Virus record (IMG/VR): IMGVR_UViG_3300037114_000038
Location: 1 to 26,200 of that record
DNA: 26,200 bases
From: a virus
Strand: one strand, 5' to 3'
Shown here in pieces: positions 3 to 13,788 of this stretch; position 1 is the first letter of the stretch, and every line of letters begins with the position of its first letter. Made by a program: the position numbers and the translations under genes. The notes under the pieces are model-generated. The model made no database searches and was not told where the DNA came from. It worked only from the letters and a program-made list of their open reading frames with translations.

Positions 3-497
3 TGGAAATTATTCAAGCAGCATCACTATTTAGATGCGAATCTAGCGCGATCAGCGACGTGTTTTGTAGCATTCTTGAACGATAGGGCGGCGGCATTTAC
101 GGCGGTCCTTCCCTTTCCTCATCCATCGGCCCCAGCATGGCGCGAGCATCGCACGGTATGCCTGCCTGACTTCCAGGGCGTTGGGATTGGCAATGCGATG
201 AGCGAATTCGTGGCGAGCCTTTACGCGGCCCACAAGCGGTATATTTCCTGCACTTCGCACCCCTCAATGATTCGGCACCGGGGCAAATCACCATTGTGGC
301 GCATCATGCGGCGACCGGGGATGGTGAGCGGGCAGCATGGAAGAACGATCAGCAACGCAAAATCGTTTTCATCCGATATGGCGAAGGGGATTCTAAGAAA
401 AACCAGCTCTACCCGTTTGACCGCTAGCTTTGAATATCGCGGAACAGCCCGACCAATCGAGGCGGTGGGTTTGGGATTGATATACTTGGCTCATTGA
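3..497 (+). CDS. GNAT-family N-acetyltransferase, 5' end outside window
   Basis: The reading frame is open from the left window edge to TGA at 495-497, so this is the C-terminal 164 codons of a longer gene. Residues in the fragment match the acetyl-CoA-binding core of GNAT enzymes: a beta-strand with REHR, then LPDFQGVGIGNAMSEF (the R/Q-x-x-G-x-G/A pyrophosphate-binding loop at the start of the alpha3 helix). After this come SHPSMIRHR and SPLW, which I recall from a phage- and plasmid-associated GNAT subgroup. GNAT enzymes transfer an acetyl group from acetyl-CoA to an amine; the substrate here cannot be told. A TTG at 75 could be called as a start, but the upstream in-frame codons (WKLFKQHHYLDANL...) look like genuine protein and the LPDFQGVG core would then lack its preceding strands. 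The family call is fairly secure; the function is not. Confidence 0.72.
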   Translation, partial: WKLFKQHHYLDANLARSATCFVAFLNDRAAAFTAVLPFPHPSAPAWREHRTVCLPDFQGVGIGNAMSEFVASLYAAHKRYISCTSHPSMIRHRGKSPLWRIMRRPGMVSGQHGRTISNAKSFSSDMAKGILRKTSSTRLTASFEYRGTARPIEAVGLGLIYLAH

Positions 498-524
498 ACG
501 CCGTTTTTTGAGTAAAAGCGCGAT

Positions 525-638
525 TCACTTTTTCTTCCGTTTCCACTTGGGTTTGCGAGCCGGAAGCTCGGATTTCGGAACCTGAACGAGCAGCCGCGCG
601 AGAGAATCGAACGCCTTAAATCCCTTTGGTTTTTTCAT
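525..638 (-). CDS. 37-aa basic protein downstream of transposase C-terminal fragment
   Basis: A 37-residue ORF beginning MKKPKGFKAFDSL, with a central ARLLVQVPKSELPARKP stretch and a very basic C-terminus (KWKRKKK). Its ATG overlaps the TGA of the upstream gene as ATGA, a typical sign of translational coupling in one transcript. The basic tail suggests nucleic-acid binding. The N-terminal KKPKGF is also found near the start of the upstream 86-aa protein (KKPKGFAKF), which may be a shared motif or an old duplication. I recognise no characterised family. It is the last gene of the leftward operon, and convergent with the acetyltransferase gene that ends 27 bases away. Confidence 0.55.
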   Translation of the reverse strand: MKKPKGFKAFDSLARLLVQVPKSELPARKPKWKRKKK

Positions 639-895
639 TCGAGTCCCATGAATCCGGCCCCATCTTGGCCGGTCAAAAGTCGGTAGGTAATCCGTCGTCC
701 TGGAACTTGCGCCATCACGGCGGCGAACCGTCCAGCGTCGTCCGTCTTGCGTTGGTTAAATCGGAATACCTCCTCATCGACGTAGCGTTGTAAGTGCATC
801 GGCGAAAGCTGGATATGCGTGCCTTTAATGCACCGCTTGAACGGCGCCCCGAATTTGGCGAAGCCCTTCGGCTTTTTTGGTTTGCTCGCGTCCAT
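635..895 (-). CDS. Stand-alone C-terminal piece of an IS1595/ISXO2-type transposase
   Basis: An 86-aa protein starting MDASKPKKPKG. From about residue 17 it matches the end of IS1595/ISXO2-family transposases: FKRCIKGTHIQLSPMHLQRYVDEEVFRFNQRK, then DDAGRF and GRRITYRLLTG. In full transposases this segment follows the DDE catalytic residues and carries the R-Y-x-x-E-x-x-x-R-x-N-x-R motif. Here the catalytic aspartates are absent and the segment is a separate gene with its own ATG. The ribosome binding site overlaps the stop codon of the upstream HNH gene (TAG|GAG, 10 bases before ATG). The downstream 37-aa gene overlaps it by ATGA. It may be a relic of a disrupted transposase, but the intact frame and tidy start argue for expression. 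The family match is strong; the present role is inference. Confidence 0.7.
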   Translation of the reverse strand: MDASKPKKPKGFAKFGAPFKRCIKGTHIQLSPMHLQRYVDEEVFRFNQRKTDDAGRFAAVMAQVPGRRITYRLLTGQDGAGFMGLE

Positions 896-905
896 GCTGA
901 TTCTC

Positions 906-1439
906 CTATTGGACGTGCGCCCAAGTTCGGCCACTCTTGATGTCGGAGATGAGCGATTCGGAAACGCCGTATTCGCGGGCGATCCGCTTTCCTTCGCCCC
1001 ACTTCCCGAGCCGGGATTTAATGTCTCGTACTTGCGATTCGGTGAGTTGCGCCTCTGCGTTCCGTTCTCCCCGCGCGGTCGTTCCGTGCCGATCTCTGTC
1101 GCAAGCATTATCCAGCGGCGTGCCCCATCGCAGATTGTCGATCGCGTTGTTCTTCGGATTGCCGTCGCCGTGCAGGCATTCCAGGCCAGCGGGGCAGGGG
1201 CCGGCGAATGCGGACAGAACAAGAATGTGAACCCAGAATGTTTTCTTGACGCCATCTTTCGAGAGGGAGACGTTTAAGTGCCCGCTCGGCATGTCGCCCT
1301 GTGCGACGATCCGTTCTCGCACGCGGCAGATTCTCCCCGGCCTTCCTTCGCGGAGGCGCGCAACGCTCTTGATTCTGCCAAGGCTCGAAACCTCATAGCA
1401 GTTTTCGTATCCCGAGATTGGCATCCATATTTCGGACAT
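906..1439 (-). CDS. NUMOD4-HNH homing-type endonuclease
   Basis: A 177-aa protein with three parts. Residues 5-35 match a NUMOD4 motif (IWMPISGYENCYEVSSLGRI). Residues about 54-110 are an HNH_3-type nuclease core: WVHILVLSAF, then CLHGDGNPKNNAIDNLRWGT, where H71, H90 and N98 are likely catalytic or metal ligands. Residues 131-175 form a helix-turn-helix (LTESQVRDIKS...AREYGVSESLISDIKSGRTW) for site recognition. Such enzymes cut a specific DNA site and spread their own gene by homing. The ATG directly follows the TAA of the upstream zinc-ribbon gene (TAAATG), with GGAGG in that gene's last codons as ribosome binding site. Its position between two transposase pieces is unusual. I see no missing key residue. 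Confidence 0.88.
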   Translation of the reverse strand: MSEIWMPISGYENCYEVSSLGRIKSVARLREGRPGRICRVRERIVAQGDMPSGHLNVSLSKDGVKKTFWVHILVLSAFAGPCPAGLECLHGDGNPKNNAIDNLRWGTPLDNACDRDRHGTTARGERNAEAQLTESQVRDIKSRLGKWGEGKRIAREYGVSESLISDIKSGRTWAHVQ

Positions 1440-1814
1440 TTAAGCAGCCTCCATTGCGGTGCGGATTTTGTTTCGGAGAGACCACGCCGTCTTCTGTGTG
1501 GTTCCGATGAGTTTCCCGAGTTCGGACGTGGAGACGCGGACTTGATTGGCTTCGACCCAAATGGCAACGAACCACGATCCGAGCGGCACGGGGCTTTCGG
1601 TGAAGATTGTACCGGACTTCAGGGAGAATTGCTTGCCGCAGTCGCGGCACTGGAGGACGTGGCGTGTGGCGATTTCGCCGATACGGCCACCGTCACACTT
1701 TGGACAGACGATCTTGCCGTCGGGCCATTTGATCCGGCGCATGTATCGATTGCAGACCGCTGGATCGGCGAAGTATTGCGCGGCGGAGAGTAGTGAGTTT
1801 GGTTGAGTTTCCAC
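1440..1814 (-). CDS. N-terminal zinc-ribbon/helical piece of an IS1595-type transposase
   Basis: A 124-aa protein starting at GTG 1814 with GGAG 8 bases upstream. The frame stays open further upstream, but only this start has a good binding site, and it matches the duplicated copy near 3357. Residues 12-35 (AAQYFADPAVCNRYMRRIKWPDGKI) and a zinc ribbon (C37-x2-C40, C56-x2-C59) are followed by FSLKSGTIFTESPVPLGSWFVAIW and TQKTAWSLRNKIRTAM. These are the DNA-binding N-terminal domains of ISXO2/IS1595 transposases. The protein stops exactly where the DDE domain should begin. The HNH gene starts on the next base, and the transposase C-terminus lies beyond it. It may bind DNA on its own; it cannot catalyse transposition alone. 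Confidence 0.75.
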   Translation of the reverse strand: METQPNSLLSAAQYFADPAVCNRYMRRIKWPDGKIVCPKCDGGRIGEIATRHVLQCRDCGKQFSLKSGTIFTESPVPLGSWFVAIWVEANQVRVSTSELGKLIGTTQKTAWSLRNKIRTAMEAA

Positions 1815-1908
1815 GGTCGATTCTCCGAAAGGATGCCGCGCGATCCGGGCCTCATTGCGTTCCGGCCGTCGCCAGAACAGGAGCACCATCGGACCGCGCG
1901 GCAAAGGA

Positions 1909-2310
1909 TCATTTTGCAAAATAAACGCGGCGAACAAGGATCGCATTCATGCTTATCGTGCGCTGTCCACCGTAGGAGTGATCTTCATCTTCGGTCACGG
2001 AATCGATGAGCATTTCGTATGGACGCCCAATCCTTGTGACCGCGCAAAAGGTGGAACTTACGAGCTTGAGGCCGTCGCCGTAATTCGCGGAAGATATCGC
2101 TGGTCGCGGATCGGCGACAGGAGCCGTCATGTGTCCCGTCCCGACACTGATGAGATCACCGATGGCTATATTAGAGGCGAAATCTGCGGTAACGATCTGA
2201 TATCCCTGGCCCGCAACAGCATCGGCGTAATCTAGGCCACTGATGCCTCTGACTGGCTTGCCAGAGTCAATTCGTCGATACGGAGTGTGGCCAATCTGGA
2301 TGTATCGCAT
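1909..2310 (-). CDS. Hypothetical 133-aa phage protein
   Basis: Start at ATG 2310 (MRYIQIGHTPYRRID) was chosen because GGAAGGA lies just upstream; the frame extends further upstream without a good binding site. The protein is mixed alpha/beta in character with no cysteine motif, signal peptide or membrane segment, and I recognise no family. It is the first gene behind the promoter at 2383-2411, and its start lies 30 bases from the conserved leader hairpin. About 95 bases separate it from the zinc-ribbon gene downstream, so it probably shares a transcript with the transposase/HNH block. Confidence 0.6.
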   Translation of the reverse strand: MRYIQIGHTPYRRIDSGKPVRGISGLDYADAVAGQGYQIVTADFASNIAIGDLISVGTGHMTAPVADPRPAISSANYGDGLKLVSSTFCAVTRIGRPYEMLIDSVTEDEDHSYGGQRTISMNAILVRRVYFAK

Positions 2311-2339
2311 TGCTTTTCCTTCCGGCTTTCGCCGGTCCT

Positions 2340-2359
2340 GCAACCTGTCATCCGGTTGC
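2340..2359 (-). promoter_or_regulatory. Leader hairpin, copy 1
   Basis: A perfect inverted repeat (GCAACC, 8-base loop, GGTTGC), 20 bases long, between a promoter and the start codon of the 133-aa gene (30 bases away). The loop and lower stem recur at 3101-3120. The outer base pair is G-C here and C-G there, which keeps pairing. It is followed in both copies by CCGATC on the + strand. It could be an RNA leader structure or a repressor operator. Confidence 0.6.
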
Positions 2360-2382
2360 CCGATCCCCACTAGACAGTCCGT

Positions 2383-2411
2383 ATTCTATCGGACATCCGC
2401 TAATGTGTCAA
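2383..2411 (-). promoter_or_regulatory. Sigma70-type promoter, leftward
   Basis: On the minus strand a perfect -35 TTGACA (2406-2411) is followed by a 17-base spacer and -10 TAGAAT (2383-2388). Transcription would start near 2376 and run through the leader hairpin into the 133-aa gene and the transposase/HNH block. Confidence 0.72.
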
Positions 2412-2484
2412 ATGCCTATTTGTTATTTTTCGCATTTTTCTCGTTTTTGTTTAATCTGCCATTTTGGCGTATGAGCCAAGTATA

Positions 2485-2712
2485 TCAGTCCCATTGCGAT
2501 TCCTCGTTTATTCTCTGTAGCTCCCGAAGATTGGCCGCTATTAGCTGTTGTTCCTTTTCGATTAACTCTGCGGGGGCAGACAGCAAATTCAGCTCGACCA
2601 ATCTCCGGAACTTTTCGCCGAGCATCATCAGGAGCGCATCTCTGTCGTGGATTCCGAGCCAGTTGCCGGTCAGATCGCCAGGCGAAGTATCAGTGTCGTA
2701 TTCTATTTTCAC
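2485..2712 (-). CDS. Hypothetical 75-aa acidic helical protein
   Basis: Starts at GTG 2712 with GGAG 7 bases upstream. Sequence MKIEYDTDTSPGDLTGNWLGIHDRDALLMM is followed by a long charged helix (residues about 30-70: RRLVELNLL...LIEKEQQLIAANLRELQRINEE) that could form a coiled coil. I recognise no family. It lies 103 bases downstream of the 84-aa gene and upstream of the next promoter, so it is probably the second gene behind the promoter at 3150-3177. Confidence 0.6.
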   Translation of the reverse strand: MKIEYDTDTSPGDLTGNWLGIHDRDALLMMLGEKFRRLVELNLLSAPAELIEKEQQLIAANLRELQRINEESQWD

Positions 2713-2815
2713 GAATTCTCCAGAAAAAGCCGCCCGCCGCCGGGGGCTGATTTCTCAGACCGCTTGCGGCGGCGCGGCGACGGGCGAAGGCTCATCGGCA
2801 GCATCCAGCGATGGA

Positions 2816-3070
2816 TTAGGCGGTCGGAATGCCAGCGGCCCCGTCCTCATACTCCGAACGCTCATCGTCGTCCTGAGCCATCCATTGGCCGAAATCGCCA
2901 GTAAATCCCTGATTCGATTTCGCCCACGCGAAAGCCTGCTCCTCGCCCACGACACGACCATGCACCATATCGGCCTGATCGGCGGCATCCTGGAAGCTCG
3001 CGTGGGTGCTGTGGGTGGTCCAGCCAGCGATAGCCTTGACTTCGACGGTGTATTTTTGGTTTGCGCTCAT
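2816..3070 (-). CDS. Hypothetical 84-aa phage protein
   Basis: ATG 3070 is preceded by AAGGA at a good distance. The N-terminus (MSANQKYTVEVKAIAGWTTHSTHASFQDAADQADMVHG) looks like a small alpha/beta fold with a YTVEV strand and a helix. The C-terminus is acidic (MAQDDDERSEYEDG). No family recognised. It is the first gene behind the second promoter and leader hairpin (start codon 31 bases from the hairpin). A different frame near its 3' end could encode a short proline-rich peptide, but I found no binding site for it. Confidence 0.6.
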   Translation of the reverse strand: MSANQKYTVEVKAIAGWTTHSTHASFQDAADQADMVHGRVVGEEQAFAWAKSNQGFTGDFGQWMAQDDDERSEYEDGAAGIPTA

Positions 3071-3100
3071 CTGAATTCCTTTGCCCTTGCGGGGCTAACT

Positions 3101-3120
3101 CCAACCTGCCATCCGGTTGG
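3101..3120 (-). promoter_or_regulatory. Leader hairpin, copy 2
   Basis: A perfect inverted repeat (CCAACC, 8-base loop, GGTTGG), a near copy of 2340-2359 with one loop change and a swapped outer base pair. It sits 31 bases before the 84-aa start codon, the same distance as copy 1 from its own gene. Confidence 0.6.
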
Positions 3121-3149
3121 CCGATCTCAGTCGTATGACTGATGAGAGA

Positions 3150-3177
3150 ATAGTATCATGTATTTCGGGTGTGTCAA
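3150..3177 (-). promoter_or_regulatory. Sigma70-type promoter, leftward, second copy
   Basis: On the minus strand a perfect -35 TTGACA (3172-3177) is followed by a 16-base spacer and -10 TACTAT (3150-3155, 4 of 6 consensus). Layout matches the promoter at 2383-2411: promoter, about 24-30 bases, hairpin, about 30 bases, start codon. Confidence 0.6.
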
Positions 3178-3249
3178 GTGCCTAAATTGGAATTATTTTA
3201 ATGTCGTGTTTTTCGCGTAAAAATGAGGTCCGGTGTGTCAAATCAGTCA

Positions 3250-3357
3250 TTACCCAATCTTGCCATCCGGCCATTTGATCCGGCGCATGTAGGCGTTGCA
3301 CACCGCCGGATCGGCGAAGTATTGCGCGGCCCCAAGTAGTGAGTTTGGTTCGTTCAT
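3250..3357 (-). pseudogene. Truncated second copy of the transposase zinc-ribbon gene
   Basis: A 35-codon frame from ATG 3357 (GGAG just upstream) reads MNEPNSLLGAAQYFADPAVC and continues to WPDGKIG, then TAA. It matches residues 4-35 of the 124-aa zinc-ribbon protein almost exactly at both DNA and protein level. The match ends right before the first CxxC of the zinc ribbon, so no zinc site is made. The DNA match extends upstream through CGCGGC and GGAGAAT. In this copy the ribosome binding site lies in a CTCC-TTCG-GGAG hairpin (3365-3376), with a UUCG tetraloop in the RNA. It is a recombination relic or a very short peptide gene. Confidence 0.6.
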
Positions 3358-3470
3358 TTTCATTCTCCCGAAGGAGCCGCGCCGGATGCTCTCTCACAGC
3401 CTACGAGCACCGAGCTAATCTTGGCCGAAGCCTAGCTGGTTTCCAGCTTGCGCTGCGGCGCGGCAAGGAT

Positions 3471-3641
3471 TCAGCGTTTCCGGTTTCGTTTTTCCAGTTC
3501 GGGCGGCAAAGATGCCCCCTCTGGGCGATACAGGTCCTCTTCGATGGCGTCGATTTCAGCTTGGATTTTTGCTGTTTTCGGGACAATTTTTTCGAGCCGT
3601 TTTTTGCGGGCCAATAATTTTCTAGATTCGCTGATCGTCAT
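3471..3641 (-). CDS. Hypothetical 56-aa charged helical protein
   Basis: Start at ATG 3641 (MTISESRKLLARKKRLEKIV) follows the TAG of the upstream gene after one base, so translation is probably coupled; AAGGA lies 12 bases upstream. The protein is highly charged and helical (residues 5-40), with C-terminal ELEKRNRKR. It may bind DNA or act as a small partner protein. The frame extends upstream to 3746, but that part overlaps the 85-aa gene and looks like shadow sequence. No family recognised. Confidence 0.55.
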   Translation of the reverse strand: MTISESRKLLARKKRLEKIVPKTAKIQAEIDAIEEDLYRPEGASLPPELEKRNRKR

Positions 3642-4410: not shown

Positions 4411-4734
4411 GTGGCTCGACCAAGAAAAACAATCGATCCAAGGCTAATCGAACTTGAAAAACAGGTCGAGAATTATGCCAGAATTGGATGCAGCGATCGG
4501 GATATCGGCGATATGCTTGGCGTTGCGCATACCACGATCGCCCGGCGTTATGCACCAATTCTCATAAAAGCCCGATCGGAGTCGAGATCGATGCTCCGTA
4601 AATGGCAAATGGACTTGGCCCGTAAGGGGAATGCTACGATGCTGATTTGGCTGGGAAAGAATGTCCTCAAACAAAGCGACAACCCAATATCTTCCGAGAA
4701 CCCCGAACCAATTGTGGACGAAACGATGGGTTGA
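4411..4734 (+). CDS. Small terminase-like DNA-binding protein
   Basis: A 107-aa protein starting at GTG 4411 (MARPRKTIDPRLIELEKQVENYARIGCSDRDIGDMLGVAHTTIARRYAPIL). Residues 17-50 form a helix-turn-helix that should recognise the packaging site. The MARPRK-IDP start and the short length are typical of small terminase or terminase-associated HTH proteins, which load the large subunit on phage DNA. It overlaps the large terminase gene by 74 bases and leads the rightward late operon. I see no Shine-Dalgarno before GTG 4411. It could be leaderless or use a later start, but the N-terminal sequence favours this one. Confidence 0.7.
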   Translation: MARPRKTIDPRLIELEKQVENYARIGCSDRDIGDMLGVAHTTIARRYAPILIKARSESRSMLRKWQMDLARKGNATMLIWLGKNVLKQSDNPISSENPEPIVDETMG

Positions 4735-5992
4735 ACTCCGTCCGCATGAAGAGCAGTTGCGGCTGTGGAATGACCCGGCCCGGTTTAAGATTGTTCCGGC
4801 TGGCAGACGGTCAGGCAAAACGGAGTTGGCTAAGCGCCGCCTGGTTGTGGCGTCGATGGTCAGAAAGAACCCGCCGGGCAGATACTTCGCCGCGGCTCCC
4901 ACCCGCGATCAGGCTAAACGGATTTGGTGGAACGACCTTAAGGCATTACTGCCAAGGGAGTGGAAGCCTCGGATAAGCGAAAGCGACCTGTCGATCACAA
5001 CCAGCACCGGGGCGCAGCTTTGGGTCATCGGATTAGACAAGCCCCAGCGGATGGAAGGGACACCGTGGGACGGGGGAGTAATTGACGAGTACGCCGACAC
5101 GAAGGTTGGCACGTTTGATGCGAACATCCGCCCAGCCCTAGCTGACCGCAAGGGGTGGCTTTGGTTCATCGGTGTGCCGGATATGTCGGCACCGGGCCAG
5201 ATCGAGTATGAGGGCTTCTATCAGGTCGCGGCGACCCATGCCGATCCTGAATGGGCGGCGTTCTCCTGGGCGAGTGCGGATATCCTCCCGGCGGAAGAGG
5301 TCGAATCGGCTAAGCGCCGGATGGACCCGCGGCTGTTCGAGCAGGAAATGCTCGGCAAGTTCATCCTGGCCGGCGGTCGCGCGTTCCCTGATTTTGATCC
5401 ATCAATACACGCAAGCAAGCCGGTTCCCTACGACAAATCGCTCCCGCTCTGCTGGTCGCTCGATTTCAACATCAACCCAATGTGCTCCGGGGTAATTCAG
5501 CACCACAAAGGCGAAGTACGGGTGATCCATGAATTCGCGTTGCCGGATACAAAGACCGACACGGCCTGTGACACGTTTTTAGGCGAGGCGCAGCGGCAAG
5601 GATGGAATTTGAAGGGGCTTAATGTTTACGGCGATGCAACGGGGGATGCGAGAGACTCCACAAGCGGTATTACAGATTGGTTCATCGTCAAAAACCGGCT
5701 AAAGAATGTGGAGGACTTCCGATCAAGGGTGCCGCGCTCGCAGCCGGGGATCAAAGATACCGTGAACGCGGTGAATGCCAAGCTAAAATCTGCGGATGGC
5801 ATGATCCATGTTGCGATTGATCCATCCTGCCATGGATTGATTACCGATCTTCGATCAGCCTTGGCCGGAACAGACATGGAACCACAGCACCACGTTTCGT
5901 GGTTCAGGTACTTTTGCAATGCCGAATTCCCCGTCAACGTCAATCGGCCTCCCGCCAGCGGCGGCATAGGCTTCGCCGCTTCTGGATTGTAA
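4661..5992 (+). CDS. terL: Large terminase subunit (ATPase-nuclease)
   Basis: A 443-aa terminase that drives DNA into the prohead and cuts it. Walker A is GRRSGKT (48-54). Walker B is GGVIDE (138-143), with the catalytic Glu next to Asp. GVPD at 171-174 is the likely coupling motif. The RNase H-like nuclease domain has acidic residues at D268 (SLDFNINP) and D325/D329 (YGDATGD). Length is normal for the family. GGGAAAG precedes ATG 4661, inside the end of the small terminase gene. The portal gene starts three bases after the TAA. Frame and motifs are intact. Confidence 0.93.
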   Translation: MSSNKATTQYLPRTPNQLWTKRWVELRPHEEQLRLWNDPARFKIVPAGRRSGKTELAKRRLVVASMVRKNPPGRYFAAAPTRDQAKRIWWNDLKALLPREWKPRISESDLSITTSTGAQLWVIGLDKPQRMEGTPWDGGVIDEYADTKVGTFDANIRPALADRKGWLWFIGVPDMSAPGQIEYEGFYQVAATHADPEWAAFSWASADILPAEEVESAKRRMDPRLFEQEMLGKFILAGGRAFPDFDPSIHASKPVPYDKSLPLCWSLDFNINPMCSGVIQHHKGEVRVIHEFALPDTKTDTACDTFLGEAQRQGWNLKGLNVYGDATGDARDSTSGITDWFIVKNRLKNVEDFRSRVPRSQPGIKDTVNAVNAKLKSADGMIHVAIDPSCHGLITDLRSALAGTDMEPQHHVSWFRYFCNAEFPVNVNRPPASGGIGFAASGL

Positions 5993-5995
5993 CCA

Positions 5996-7585
5996 ATGGC
6001 CGAAAACCTTTACACGATGACGGTTCTTCACGGCGACAATACGACGAATCTTTCATCGCTGGATTTGGCCGAGAAACCAAAGAAGTCTGTTGCCGGAGAG
6101 CAGACGGGGCCGCAAGTCGATTCCGGGGATAGTTCTGTCGTCAAACGCATTGTGGGCGGCGGCGGGATTATCAGTTCGGCGAGTGCTGAGCCGGTTGGGT
6201 TTTCGCCGCCGCCGCCCGGCACATACGAAACTTACGATCTGATTTCGCGTTACCCGACCGTCGCAATGGTCATGCAGGCGGCGCTTGGCCCGATCATCGC
6301 AAACGAAGGCGGATTCCAGAAGAAAGAGGATGACGTTCCCGACGAATATCTCGAACTGATCCAGGAATGTTTTGACACGACATGGCCGGACATCGTGCGG
6401 GATGGAATGCGGGCGATACCGAATGGGTATGCGCCTTTTGAAGCCATCTTTGAATTCACAGATGGCCGGATCATGCTCAATCCGGACCAGCCGCTCAAGC
6501 CGCTTGACCCGCGATTCTGTCAGTTCATTCAGGACAAAAAGAACGGTGCGATACTTGGGATCAAAAACGAAGTGCCTGGATACGACCCGGTTGAATTGCT
6601 AGGACCAAAGGCATTCTGGTACTCGAACGATCCGAAGTACGGAAACCCATTCGGCAATCCCCGCCATGAGAACATCCGCAAGGAATGGAGCGAGGCGACG
6701 CAGATTCAGGACCGGCTTGCTCGGTATCTGAAAAAGGTTGCCGCGATCATCGTCCAATTACACTACCCGGGTGAAGGCGAGAGCTTCTATTTCGGCGGTG
6801 CGAAGTACCCTAACGCATGGATTGCGGATGACATCCTGAAAAGGGCAAGCCGTGGCGATTCGCTGATGTTTCCCAACTTGTTCGCGGCGGAGATTGAGAA
6901 AGACCCGTCCAAGGCCGCTGAACTGGCCGGAAAAAGCTCGTGGGTTCTCAGTGCTTTGGAGGTCGGCAAGAGCGACCACGCCGAAGGTTTTATCAAGTCG
7001 CTCGAAATGTATGACAAGCTGTTCGTCCGCGGATGGCTCAGGCCAGAGCGGTCGGTGTTGGAAGCGCAACATGGTTCGCGGGCAGACTCGCAGACGCACA
7101 GCGATATCGGGATCATCGACTCGGAAACGATCAGTCGTGATTTTGCCCGTGCAGTCAATCGTCGTCTGGTTGACCTGATTTTGATGCTCAATTTCGGCCC
7201 GAAGGCACGCGGCACCGTGTTCTACGTCCCGAAGCCGATCAGCAACGATACCGCTGCATCTTGGGATAAGATCATCACGGCAGGCATGGGCGCACAGACT
7301 GTCGGCCCGGCGCTGGCCCAGGTTGTGGACTGGATTGAGATGTTCGAGGAGCAGGGCATCCCGATTCGTGCGGCGATTCAGGAACAGGTTGAGAAGACGG
7401 GCATCGACGGCATCATCGCAGCCCAGCAAAAGGCCGCTGCTGCATTGGGTATGCAAACCCAACAGAAGCCGGGCAAGAAGCCGAGCGACAACGACCAGCA
7501 GAATATGAGCAAGATCGTTTCTGGGTACGCCTGGCAGCGAAGGATCGAACGGCAACGGGTTGCGGCGTTCGCGGACGAAAGGTGA
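5996..7585 (+). CDS. Portal protein, Mu gp29-like (DUF935)
   Basis: A 529-aa protein beginning MAENLYTMTVLHGD. After about 75 variable residues comes YPTVAMVMQAALGPIIANEGGFQ, then a portal-like core with WPDIVRDGMRAIPNGYAPFEAIFEF and LKPLDPRFCQFIQD. The later RADSQTHSDIGIIDSETISRDFARAVNRRLVDLILMLNFG block corresponds to the G-SRA-xxH...D...L...LVxLNFG region of DUF935 portals. The portal forms the dodecameric vertex ring through which DNA enters and leaves. Placement directly after the large terminase supports the call. The C-terminus is basic and Gln-rich. Confidence 0.85.
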   Translation: MAENLYTMTVLHGDNTTNLSSLDLAEKPKKSVAGEQTGPQVDSGDSSVVKRIVGGGGIISSASAEPVGFSPPPPGTYETYDLISRYPTVAMVMQAALGPIIANEGGFQKKEDDVPDEYLELIQECFDTTWPDIVRDGMRAIPNGYAPFEAIFEFTDGRIMLNPDQPLKPLDPRFCQFIQDKKNGAILGIKNEVPGYDPVELLGPKAFWYSNDPKYGNPFGNPRHENIRKEWSEATQIQDRLARYLKKVAAIIVQLHYPGEGESFYFGGAKYPNAWIADDILKRASRGDSLMFPNLFAAEIEKDPSKAAELAGKSSWVLSALEVGKSDHAEGFIKSLEMYDKLFVRGWLRPERSVLEAQHGSRADSQTHSDIGIIDSETISRDFARAVNRRLVDLILMLNFGPKARGTVFYVPKPISNDTAASWDKIITAGMGAQTVGPALAQVVDWIEMFEEQGIPIRAAIQEQVEKTGIDGIIAAQQKAAAALGMQTQQKPGKKPSDNDQQNMSKIVSGYAWQRRIERQRVAAFADER

Positions 7586-7594
7586 GGAAGCACT

Positions 7595-7798
7595 ATGGAA
7601 AACGAGCACAAGCTCAAGGGGTTTGCGTATGCAGAATCTGTTCTACCAGCAGTATTTGAGTCGCGCGAGACAATTGCACGGCGGATATTGGAAGCCGCAA
7701 GTCGCAATGTCAGAGTTCCGTATGGTTTTATTTGGTCCGAACAGCCTATAGATGGCGTCGGATTTCATCTTTCCGGTCCGTCAATGGCAACTTCGTGA
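7595..7798 (+). CDS. Hypothetical 67-aa protein between portal and F-like gene
   Basis: GAGGAAG precedes ATG 7595. The sequence MENEHKLKGFAYAESVLPAVFESRETIARRILEAASRNVRVPYGFIW has a central amphipathic helix. No family recognised. Its TGA overlaps the GTG of the next gene as GTGA, so the two are probably co-translated. It may be a small head-assembly factor, given its position only. Confidence 0.6.
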   Translation: MENEHKLKGFAYAESVLPAVFESRETIARRILEAASRNVRVPYGFIWSEQPIDGVGFHLSGPSMATS

Positions 7799-8685
7799 CT
7801 CTCACCGCCGATCCACCTTCGACCGAAACCCGTGAGTCGCTCCCGATCAACGGAAAGCCCAACGACGACGACAAGTGGTGGGCCGCATTCCTCCTGATCG
7901 ATGACAACGACGTTGCCCGCGCCGATGCGTACTGGCAACGCCACGCAAGCCCGATGTTCAATGGGCTGCTATCTGGGCAGGATTTTTACTTTGATGAGCA
8001 GGAACAGCAATACTACCGGAAAAATGGCCGCGCCGTTGACGAGGATGAAATTCGCTGGCTGTTCCTGGCCTTCCTGACCGCCGCTGGCGATGAGATGGAG
8101 ATGGAGGCGGCAAAGATGGCCGGTGGGGAAATGCCGCTGGCAGACTGGCAATGGCAACAGGCGGCGGCGGTAAAGGATTTATACATCGCATCGGACGCGC
8201 TGGGGGTTGGTGGTATTGATGGATTGACCGAAACGGACTTGCAGGACGTGGAAGGGGTCGTCGGCGAAAGTGGGTTGGCTGATGCGTTAGTGCGGCTCAG
8301 GCGATTCGGAAATCAGATTGAGGAGAGCGGGGAAACGGCGGGGACGGCGAAGCAGATTGTGCATCGCGCCGGGCAGTATGCTTTGCCAGCCCATACGATT
8401 CAAGAAGAGGCAAGACGTGCATCGCACATTCGCGCACGGGATGGGGATGGCAAGTTAATCAGGTGGCAGGAGTTGAACGTCCTGACTCCAGCAGATCATT
8501 GCAACGACGGTGAATTCACGGTCGGATGCTGGGAATGTACACAAGCGGGGTGGCAGGACATCGGCACGCTTCCAAGCCCCGGCCTGCGCACCTGCAACGT
8601 CCACTGCAAGTGTTATCTGCGCTATCGGCTCATTCCACCCACAGACGCGATTCTGAATGACCCTCACCGGCCGGATCACAATTGA
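7795..8685 (+). CDS. Mu F-like minor head (head morphogenesis) protein
   Basis: A 296-aa protein from GTG 7795. An ATG at 7732 would add 21 residues that shadow the preceding gene, so the GTGA overlap start is preferred. The C-terminal third is Mu F-like: ASHIRARDGDGKLIRWQELNVLTPADHCNDGE, a cluster CxxC/CWEC, and the end CNVHCKCYLRYR that resembles the conserved C-terminal P-x-C-x-C segment. These proteins are packaged in the head and help prohead assembly. It lies just after the portal and before the protease/scaffold, as in Mu-like head clusters. The N-terminal half is acidic and poorly recognisable. Confidence 0.75.
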   Translation: MTLTADPPSTETRESLPINGKPNDDDKWWAAFLLIDDNDVARADAYWQRHASPMFNGLLSGQDFYFDEQEQQYYRKNGRAVDEDEIRWLFLAFLTAAGDEMEMEAAKMAGGEMPLADWQWQQAAAVKDLYIASDALGVGGIDGLTETDLQDVEGVVGESGLADALVRLRRFGNQIEESGETAGTAKQIVHRAGQYALPAHTIQEEARRASHIRARDGDGKLIRWQELNVLTPADHCNDGEFTVGCWECTQAGWQDIGTLPSPGLRTCNVHCKCYLRYRLIPPTDAILNDPHRPDHN

Positions 8686-8890
8686 CGAACGCAAATCGAT
8701 GATTTGTGGGTGTGGGAAATCCGTTTCAATCCTTCTTGGGATTACGGACGGGAAAAGCGTTACCGATGTGTGCTGCTGGTGTGGCCGGAGGAAAACCCGG
8801 ACCACGCATTTAAGGGTCTCCGACGCCGCGAGCGTTTTCACGGTCAATCTCATCAACGAAACAATCGTCGCTTCAAGAGGTAGGACATGA
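8657..8890 (+). CDS. Small Com-like zinc-ribbon protein
   Basis: A 77-aa protein overlapping the F-like gene by 29 bases. Four cysteine positions (C17/C19 and C39/C42, with C40 adjacent) flank a hairpin-like segment and form a probable zinc ribbon (MICGCGK...CCWCGRRKT). This resembles small zinc proteins such as Mu Com, a translational activator, but the spacing is unlike it and no mom-like gene is nearby. An internal ATG at 8699 would retain the whole zinc site. Its end overlaps the next start as ATGA. The call of a zinc-binding protein is reasonable; the role is unknown. Confidence 0.5.
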   Translation: MTLTGRITIDERKSMICGCGKSVSILLGITDGKSVTDVCCWCGRRKTRTTHLRVSDAASVFTVNLINETIVASRGRT

Positions 8891-9159
8891 ATCACCGTTA
8901 TGGCAATTTCGACCGTTGGACGGATGCTTGCCGATGTTTCCTTGGCATATTGCAGGATATTGGTCCGGAGAAAAGGATCGACCCAATTGGAATAGCTATC
9001 GGCCTGGTTGGCCGATTATATCTCGCGGTTGATTTGGTCGATCAGTTCAGGATGCGCGGGGTAATTAACATATCAAAACCAATGATGGAAGAAGGATATT
9101 GGACGGGCCGCAACTATGGGGATCCATCTATCGACGAGCCGCTGCAAGCCACCGCCTGA
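8887..9159 (+). CDS. Hypothetical 90-aa protein
   Basis: ATG 8887 has AGAGGTAGGA upstream and overlaps the preceding TGA as ATGA. Sequence MNHRYGNFDRWTDACRCFLGILQDIG is followed by a hydrophobic stretch (PIGIAIGLVGRLYLAVDLVDQF) that is too interrupted to be a clear membrane helix. No family recognised. It closes the small-gene set before the protease/scaffold gene, which starts 54 bases on. Confidence 0.58.
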   Translation: MNHRYGNFDRWTDACRCFLGILQDIGPEKRIDPIGIAIGLVGRLYLAVDLVDQFRMRGVINISKPMMEEGYWTGRNYGDPSIDEPLQATA

Positions 9160-12659: not shown

Positions 12660-12684
12660 GTGTTTTAAATGACTTATGGCATTT

Positions 12685-12728
12685 CTTGCTGGCCGAGAAA
12701 ACCGCAGTTCCGGTACTCGGCCAGCAAG
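12685..12728 (+). terminator. Large inverted repeat after the capsid gene (terminator-like)
   Basis: Arms CTTGCTGGCCGAG (12685-12697) and CTCGGCCAGCAAG (12716-12728) are perfectly complementary over 13 bases. Within the 18-base loop, ACCG and CGGT can pair again. There is no T-run on either side, so it may be a factor-dependent pause, an RNA processing or stability element, or a recombination or insertion trace rather than a classical terminator. It lies inside the HNH remnant's frame on the other strand. Confidence 0.5.
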
Positions 12729-12914
12729 GATTGCTGATCTGGATGTTGGAAGGAGAAAGAGGAATTCTAAAATAGTCCGGTGTTTCTTTGATGTGTTACA
12801 AGGAAGGCACGCCGGAACAATGTTGTAAATGTCGATGACTCCGCCATTGCTCTTCGGGATTAGGTGGTCCTTTGTCATTCTTCCGGAGGCTCCGCAATAA
12901 ATGCTCGCCCCCAC
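12690..12914 (-). pseudogene. HNH endonuclease remnant, leftward
   Basis: On the minus strand the frame encodes SIYCGASGRMTKDHLIPKS and then NIVPACLPCNTSKKHRTILEF. These are the HNH core (DH..P, N, C-x2-C-N) of small phage HNH nucleases. The first zinc pair, normally CxYC, is SIYC here (AGC in place of TGC). The N-terminus is cut off by the oppositely oriented radical SAM gene. The frame has no stop of its own and runs on antisense through the capsid gene to 12003. An ATG at 12878 could restart it. The homology is clear, but function is doubtful. Confidence 0.6.
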
Positions 12915-13788
12915 CCAAAAATCAAACGACACGATCCAACTGATCGTTACCCGTTCGTGTTCGTTGCTGACGTGCTCGAATTGCACTCAACTTTTGCCAT
13001 TTCGCAAAGACGTGGCGCACATGAGCATTGACGTGTTTCGTTTGGCGTTGCGTTCTCTCGAAGGCTGGCCGGGCATCCGCGGCGTGTTCGGTGGAAATCC
13101 GACAAACCATCCACGGTTCGCCGATCTGTGCCAAGTGCTGATTGAGGAAGTCCCCGACCAGCGCCAACGGGGGTTGTGGTGCAATGATTTATTGAAGCAC
13201 GGCCAGATCGTACGCGACACGTTCTACCCGCTTGGCCGGTTCAACATGAATGCCCATGCTGATGAAGCGGCGGCGGCGGAAATCGACCGCTGGCTACCGG
13301 GCAAGCTGATCGCGTCGAGCCGGAATAATGCGGCATGGCACTCGCCGATCCTGATGAACCACGCAGACTACGGCATCGGATACGATGAGTGGGTTGGGAT
13401 GCGTGAGAAGTGCGACATCAACCAGCGGTGGAGTTCCGCGATTGCCGAGCGCGACGGTAAGCCTTACGCCTATTTCTGTGAAGTCGGAGCTGCGTTGGAC
13501 GGGATTCGCGGGGAGAATCATGGGATCGAAGCTGTTCCCGGCTGGTGGAAATTCGGGATGGATCATTTCGCAGGACAAGTCAAAGGGTGTTGTGACCGGG
13601 GTTGCGGCGTGCCTTTGAAGCTGAAAGGTCATCTCGACCGCGACGATACTTACGATGTTTCGCCTTCGTTCGTGCCGTTTACGGTGAAGGGAAAGAACGT
13701 GACGATTGCGAATCATGAGACGCTGCCGGGCGAGCATGTTCAACAGCCGACTGACTACCTTAGACTTAGAACGCCGGTTTCGGTATAA
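12901..13788 (+). CDS. Radical SAM protein with extra C-terminal cysteines
   Basis: A 295-aa protein with GGAGG before ATG 12901. Residues 12-28 (IQLIVTRSCSLLTCSNC) hold the cluster cysteines C20, C25 and C28, spaced CX4CX2C instead of the usual CX3CX2C. GGNP (64-67) corresponds to the GGEP SAM-binding motif. C171, C193, C230, C231 and C235 could bind a second iron-sulphur cluster, as in SPASM-type or twitch-type domains. Radical SAM enzymes cleave SAM to start radical chemistry on sugars, peptides or cofactors. A 53-aa gene starts 7 bases later, followed by glycosyltransferases and a methyltransferase. Radical SAM membership is fairly sure; the substrate is unknown. Confidence 0.72.
   Translation: MLAPTQKSNDTIQLIVTRSCSLLTCSNCTQLLPFRKDVAHMSIDVFRLALRSLEGWPGIRGVFGGNPTNHPRFADLCQVLIEEVPDQRQRGLWCNDLLKHGQIVRDTFYPLGRFNMNAHADEAAAAEIDRWLPGKLIASSRNNAAWHSPILMNHADYGIGYDEWVGMREKCDINQRWSSAIAERDGKPYAYFCEVGAALDGIRGENHGIEAVPGWWKFGMDHFAGQVKGCCDRGCGVPLKLKGHLDRDDTYDVSPSFVPFTVKGKNVTIANHETLPGEHVQQPTDYLRLRTPVSV

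Follow-up and report, generated by a model that had tools for sequence, protein, structure and literature searches.

The window, the whole stretch of DNA analysed, is a virus contig of 26,200 bases (positions 1 to 26,200 of IMGVR_UViG_3300037114_000038). Phage genes of the terminase, portal and capsid type are found from position 4411 onward to the right, and the locus studied lies at the left end of the contig. It is flanked on the left by a GNAT-like phage gene (3-497, plus strand; Acetyltransf_7/1 match), the 3' end of which is interrupted by an inverted repeat, and on the right by the gene for the small terminase subunit, TerS (4411-4734, plus strand). In three related phages whose terminases are 59-62% identical (L128, L129 and L130), TerS comes immediately after the GNAT-like gene. 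Judged by gene order, these phages appear to represent the empty site, and the DNA at 473-3473 has no counterpart in them. A second HNH gene (PF01844/HNH_5) is located at 12660-12986 on the minus strand, beside a capsid-type gene.

Four leftward frames occupy positions 525 to 1814, and a check of ORFs and Pfam domains recovered them with the spacing and domain assignments given by an earlier, sequence-only reading. The 124-aa ORF at 1440-1814 starts with GTG and encodes a stand-alone zinc ribbon plus HTH protein of the IS1595 type (PF12760, E 1.3e-9) without a DDE domain, hereafter the N protein. Its stop codon TAA is followed directly by the ATG of a 177-aa gene at 906-1439 (HNH_3 1.4e-12 and NUMOD4 5.6e-10 in Pfam), which carries the two domains of phage homing endonucleases and is of the free-standing type; its best phage matches are about 40% identical over 99% of the length. 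The stop codon TAG of this HNH gene falls inside ...CAATAGGAGAATCAGCATG. The 86-aa ORF at 635-895 matches just positions ~119-153 of the PF12762 profile (E 3.3e-7), and only about its last 68 residues (the C piece) are clearly transposase. The 37-aa basic ORF at 525-638, whose start overlaps the 86-aa ORF upstream in the sequence ATGA, is the small basic ORF typical of IS1595-type phage elements; a Pfam search with it gave no match. The junctions are as had been described. Purine-rich sites resembling ribosome-binding sites precede the open frames of the N protein, the HNH protein and the 37-aa ORF.

L005, a locus of IMG/VR 3300037242_000090, carries an intact transposase of the kind that the sequence-only reading had named as evidence for random decay, though at another genomic site. 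The L005 transposase has 314 aa (PF12760 + PF12762, E 1.8e-41). Compared with it, residues ~125-245 (about 120 residues, including D136, D207 and E241) are absent from the window. The locus thus has the PF12760 zinc-ribbon N-terminus of the IS1595 family and the PF12762 tail alone, without the DDE catalytic core.

Inverted repeats and homology to an intact element

Repeat comparison located a terminal inverted repeat at 473-496 (plus strand), the left end of an L005-like element, here element C, and another at 2469-2492 (minus strand), the upstream end of element A. The two are 96% identical over 23 bp, and no further copy is found within the window. Their flanks are unrelated (GTGGGTTT at 465-472, without a partner, versus ATTGCGAT at the 2492 repeat), no 8-bp target duplication joins them, and they are therefore not both ends of one insertion but ends of different elements. 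That one whole transposon spans the distance from the 473 repeat to the 2492 repeat was considered and is ruled out by the unlike flanks and by the switch in homology within that interval.

At the DNA level, window 3473-3257 is 93% identical to L005 982-1198 and window 841-471 is 87% identical to L005 1836-2206, while L005 1199-1835 is missing between the two matched parts. On this map the left repeat belongs to the 3' part of element C, together with the 37-aa ORF and the C piece. The 3' end of the element C transposase is at 635-841 (minus strand; PF12762 tail without DDE residues, within the L005 match at 471-841). The interrupted 5' end of the same gene, with its leader, is at 3255-3473 (minus strand), where a truncated transposase start at 3257-3363 lies in the other L005 match. 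L005 encodes the same 37-aa protein; the two genes differ by 8 synonymous and 0 nonsynonymous changes.

A degenerate terminal inverted repeat at 3231-3254 (minus strand) matches at 19 of 24 positions; each shuffled window would be expected to give about 0.75 matches of 18 or more. It interrupts the transposase gene of element C at codon ~36 and marks the upstream end of element B. Element B has a promoter-like site at 3150-3177 and passenger ORFs at 2485-2712 and 2816-3070 (together 2485-3070), all on the minus strand; a Pfam search with these ORFs gave no match. Element A starts with its own promoter-like site, TTGACA-N17-TAGAAT (2383-2411, minus strand), followed by a passenger ORF (1909-2310, minus strand) 83% identical to a passenger in the contig of L005 and L045. 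The number of promoter-like sites in the motif scan is within chance; the position of the element A site is conserved in L005 and L045. The N protein belongs to element A.

The proposal that the N and C pieces are two halves of one transposase is not borne out. The inverted repeats, the promoter-like site of the element and the second transposase 5' fragment at 3257-3363, all overlooked in the sequence-only reading, place the two pieces in different elements, as does the DNA homology. Protein identity to L005 is 69% for the N piece and 88% for the C piece. The dN/dS ratio versus L005 is 0.04 for the C piece and 0.10 for the first half of N, values in which selection before and after the loss of the core is inseparable and most of which may predate that deletion.

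The first part of the 86-aa ORF has another source. It begins with MDASKPKKPKGF, a sequence similar to the small basic ORF found 3' of the transposase in related elements, in particular that of L013 (MSKDSTKPKKPKGF), so the 86-aa protein seems to join the small ORF of element A to the transposase tail of element C. The first codons of this second small basic ORF extend over 842-895 (minus strand); the position of the fusion junction is uncertain by about 8 codons, and the codons around it (AKFGAP) fit either parent. As a whole, 473-3473 can be read as a nest of IS1595-family elements.

Related elements and HNH genes in other virus contigs

In other virus contigs, IS1595-family elements are enclosed by repeats of this type and mostly have perfect 8-bp duplications, seen in ten or so related phage elements. 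The duplications are CAAATTTG in L003, TTAAAATA in L009/L010, CTTCCTTT in L013 and CACTGAAG in L014/L015; further elements with duplications are L011, L017, L021, L170 and L173. Duplications of 8 bases are usual for the IS1595 family (PMC12561309). The elements have a common plan: a repeat, a promoter-like site, one or more passenger ORFs, the transposase, a small basic ORF (KKPKGFxAFDxLARxLxxVPK type) and a repeat. The small basic ORF (KKPKGFxAFDxLARxLxxVPKxE with a lysine-rich tail, no Pfam family) stands before the right repeat in nearly all elements and is retained even where the transposase is lost. It was seen at window 525-638 and in L003, L005, L012, L013, L015, L170, L176, L177 and L181.

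Other cargo and arrangements were observed among these contigs. The 508-bp element at L005:6120-6627 has inverted repeats, a perfect duplication (ATTGGATG) and a Dam-like adenine methyltransferase as its sole ORF. Repeats of the same type surround a C5 cytosine methyltransferase gene (PF00145, 4e-27) at L044:8979-10588, where the flanks are unmatched. An 840-bp element with terminal repeats (L174:3343-4182) has kept just the C-terminal tail of its transposase, along with a passenger and the small basic ORF. Contig 3300037242_000090 (L045 at its end, L005 at its start) has an array of the 30-bp repeat GACGCCGAGCGCCCTGGAAGCTGCGGG at both ends, inside a repeat-protein ORF that seemingly runs across the contig ends. 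Nesting also occurs in L044, where an element at 6936-8463 (duplication ATCGGCTC) lies within another at 5419-8947 (duplication CAAATGAA), both duplications being intact. The elements L014:4397-6082 and L015:4397-5709 have insertion site and duplication in common, and the transposase core is lost in L015, apparently by deletion in place.

The element in L013 lacks the DDE core and consists of a passenger, a 123-aa zinc ribbon plus HTH protein and the small basic ORF, between intact terminal repeats. With matched repeats and its duplication it qualifies as a non-autonomous IS, whereas the right end of element A in the window is lost. The N protein type of the window is thus also present in an element without any HNH gene. 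The window and L013 proteins share a variant second half, SGTIFxxSPxPLGxWFVAIWxxANxVR; in trees, N's first half is placed with L005 (support 0.98) and its second half, weakly, with L013 (0.59). The AF2 model of the N protein (pLDDT 91, pTM 0.80) is one complete domain that ends at residue 123, and a fold search of the PDB with this protein returned nothing at E 0.001 or better. N domains without a downstream DDE core were counted at 11/25 virus loci and 2/59 bacterial loci (Fisher p 1e-5), or at 6/20 and 2/59 when the window, L044 and L047, loci that the question itself brought up, are left out (p 0.003), in samples that are a non-random draw of N-domain loci.

The point of entry of the HNH gene can be located by comparison with L013. 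The spacer after the N protein there, TAATAGAGGAATAGCGAACATG, resembles CAATAGGAGAATCAGCATG after the window HNH gene, which puts the HNH gene downstream of the N stop codon and ahead of the small basic ORF with its ribosome-binding site. L013 presents the same junction without HNH, next to a protein just 52% identical to that of the window. The gap between transposase and small basic ORF holds passengers in L003, L176 and L181. Since the N protein type is already without a catalytic domain in L013, the HNH gene probably displaced none at the window locus. That an HNH gene stands where the DDE core would be expected holds for its position; the gene occupies a gap of element A, and the replacement itself probably did not take place at this locus. 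HNH_3 genes were found in 3 of 19 other virus records tested, all away from the elements.

A different case is presented by L044 (IMG/VR 3300050016_000060). A single 294-aa ORF at 2099-2983 on the minus strand combines PF12760 (1.1e-7) and HNH_3 (1.9e-11), both above cut-offs, with a NUMOD4 match below cut-off and no DDE domain. The transposase homology stops at AMETQEF, within a few residues of the point at which the window N protein ends. The HNH stop codon and the start of the small basic ORF share an ATGA overlap. No PF12762 was found in the 59-kb record. In the structure model the HNH half is unreliable, with pLDDT below 50 for residues 179-242. Judged from its sequence, the protein is a true chimera of N domain and HNH, joined in frame at the domain boundary where the two genes meet in the window. 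The idea that HNH took the place of the catalytic domain, which is not supported at the window locus, therefore applies to L044, where such a replacement does appear to have occurred.

Between the HNH proteins of the window and L044, identity is 51% over 88 aa. Other phage HNHs give the window protein a higher score (117 bits) than that of L044 does (88 bits), so the two acquisitions look independent and two separate unions of N domain and HNH are likely. A common origin of the two HNH genes was considered and is unsupported, the window gene being closer to other phage HNHs. Further chimeras were found neither in 788 Planctomycetota and Acidobacteriota genomes nor in 50,697 phage and 72,556 plasmid records (80% coverage or more), and no report of an IS1595-HNH chimera was found in the literature searched.

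Origin and activity of the arrangement

The arrangement is probably the result of nested IS1595-family insertions and one deletion, with HNH having replaced nothing at the locus. Insertion and deletion had been named as the rival of domain replacement in the sequence-only reading, and the L005 map, the repeats and the element homologies fit it better. In this history an element C, near the intact L005 element, would have inserted between the terminase genes and the GNAT-like gene. Its transposase gene would have received element B, and B in turn element A, all in the same orientation. Element A would have been a DDE-less element with a passenger, a stand-alone zinc ribbon plus HTH protein, that is, the DNA-binding part of a transposase, and the small basic protein. 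The NUMOD4-HNH gene, of the homing type, would have entered A between the N gene and the small basic ORF, the slot used by passengers elsewhere. One deletion would then have taken out A's right end, what remained of B and, in the C transposase, codons ~36-246, so that the first codons of A's small basic ORF became joined to the tail of C's transposase. Such a nest with one deletion would explain each of the missing parts, and the gene order of L128-L130, the nested pair in L044 and the in-place loss in L015 lend it independent backing. This single deletion is one that we infer, as no undeleted copy of the nest was found. The degenerate state of the B repeat (19 of 24) speaks against the proposal, as do the ambiguous codons around the fusion and the frames, every one of which is still open and tightly coupled, and the recurrence of N domain plus HNH in L044, which chance decay does not predict.

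The product would be a remnant that, on its gene content, cannot transpose by itself; as a non-autonomous element it would move only with a DDE transposase supplied in trans. The activities most likely retained are homing, for the HNH protein, and inverted-repeat binding, for the N protein. The HNH protein would nick or cut related DNA that lacks the HNH gene and spread by recombination repair, and the DNA-binding protein may occupy the inverted repeats, acting as a repressor or competitor of intact transposases.

The same history with no remaining function, in which all pieces are dead fragments and the HNH gene is accidental, is rather unlikely. It would agree with the frequent loss of DDE cores in phage copies (11/25 versus 2/59), but the N, HNH and 37-aa frames are open with sites resembling ribosome-binding sites, and dN/dS versus L005 is low, though perhaps mostly from a time before the deletion. 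A functional replacement, in which the transposase DNA-binding domain (a subunit here, fused in L044) directs HNH to IS1595-type inverted repeats and the element spreads by nicking others and gene conversion, is less likely still. The L044 fusion, with PF12760 and HNH_3 in one ORF, the same boundary and neither a DDE domain nor PF12762 in the record, argues for it, as do the predicted complete fold of the N piece and the grouping of its second half with the DDE-less L013 protein and not with L005. Against these stand the small number of cases, two, with HNH acquisitions that look independent, the HNH protein's own NUMOD4 and C-terminal HTH-like part, and the lack of a fusion in the surveyed Planctomycetota and Acidobacteriota genomes and phage and plasmid records. 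It is equally doubtful that phage IS1595 elements repeatedly exchange DDE for HNH and keep the end-recognising domain, which would yield a nuclease directed to transposon ends that cuts and converts other copies.

That a homing endonuclease split one transposase gene, the pieces of which reassemble as in Aeh1 nrdA with mobE, is extremely improbable. The gene order and coupled starts do resemble the mobE case, in which the start of Aeh1 mobE overlaps the stop of nrdA (PMC2988022). The N and C pieces, however, come from different elements and do not together make up one whole gene, the catalytic core of ~120 residues is wholly absent, and C begins with a foreign leader. A split of the Aeh1 type does not apply to pieces that are not from one gene, and the L005 homology map largely rules it out.

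Comparison with known systems

IS1595-type phage elements with HNH cargo appear to be a new variant within the known IS1595 family. They point to a little-described population of this family in environmental phage genomes, which nests, loses its catalytic core and carries HNH, DNA methyltransferases and small proteins as cargo. The L044 protein offers a concrete and easily expressed candidate for a transposase targeting domain re-armed with a homing nuclease, and the window illustrates how an apparent domain swap can come from nested insertion and one deletion.

With the IS1595 family (ISXO2-like, with passenger genes) the locus shares PF12760, the PF12762 tail, terminal inverted repeats beginning GG and, in related elements, 8-bp duplications. 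It differs from that family in the missing D-D-E core, the nested and chimeric structure, the HNH cargo, the phage genome and the small basic ORF ahead of the right-hand repeat. Inverted repeats and cargo without an active transposase are likewise found in non-autonomous IS derivatives (MITE, MIC, tIS), and also in L013 and L005:6120-6627, which have duplications, whereas the window element has no matching right end and retains the DNA-binding part of a transposase as a gene. The NUMOD4-HNH-HTH order and the short coupled gene are those of free-standing phage NUMOD4-HNH homing endonucleases (phrog_1492, phrog_59, phrog_959), but the window gene lies inside an IS1595-type element beside a transposase DNA-binding domain, to which HNH is fused in L044. 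In Aeh1 nrdA/mobE and T4 gene 60/mobA an HNH gene also stands between two pieces related to one enzyme; in the window the two pieces trace to separate elements, and the catalytic part is gone. InsA of IS1, an IS of a related family, is a stand-alone zinc-finger plus HTH protein that binds the ends of the element and is comparable to the window N protein. InsA is produced from a complete insAB under frameshift control, in contrast to the window, which is without the catalytic part.
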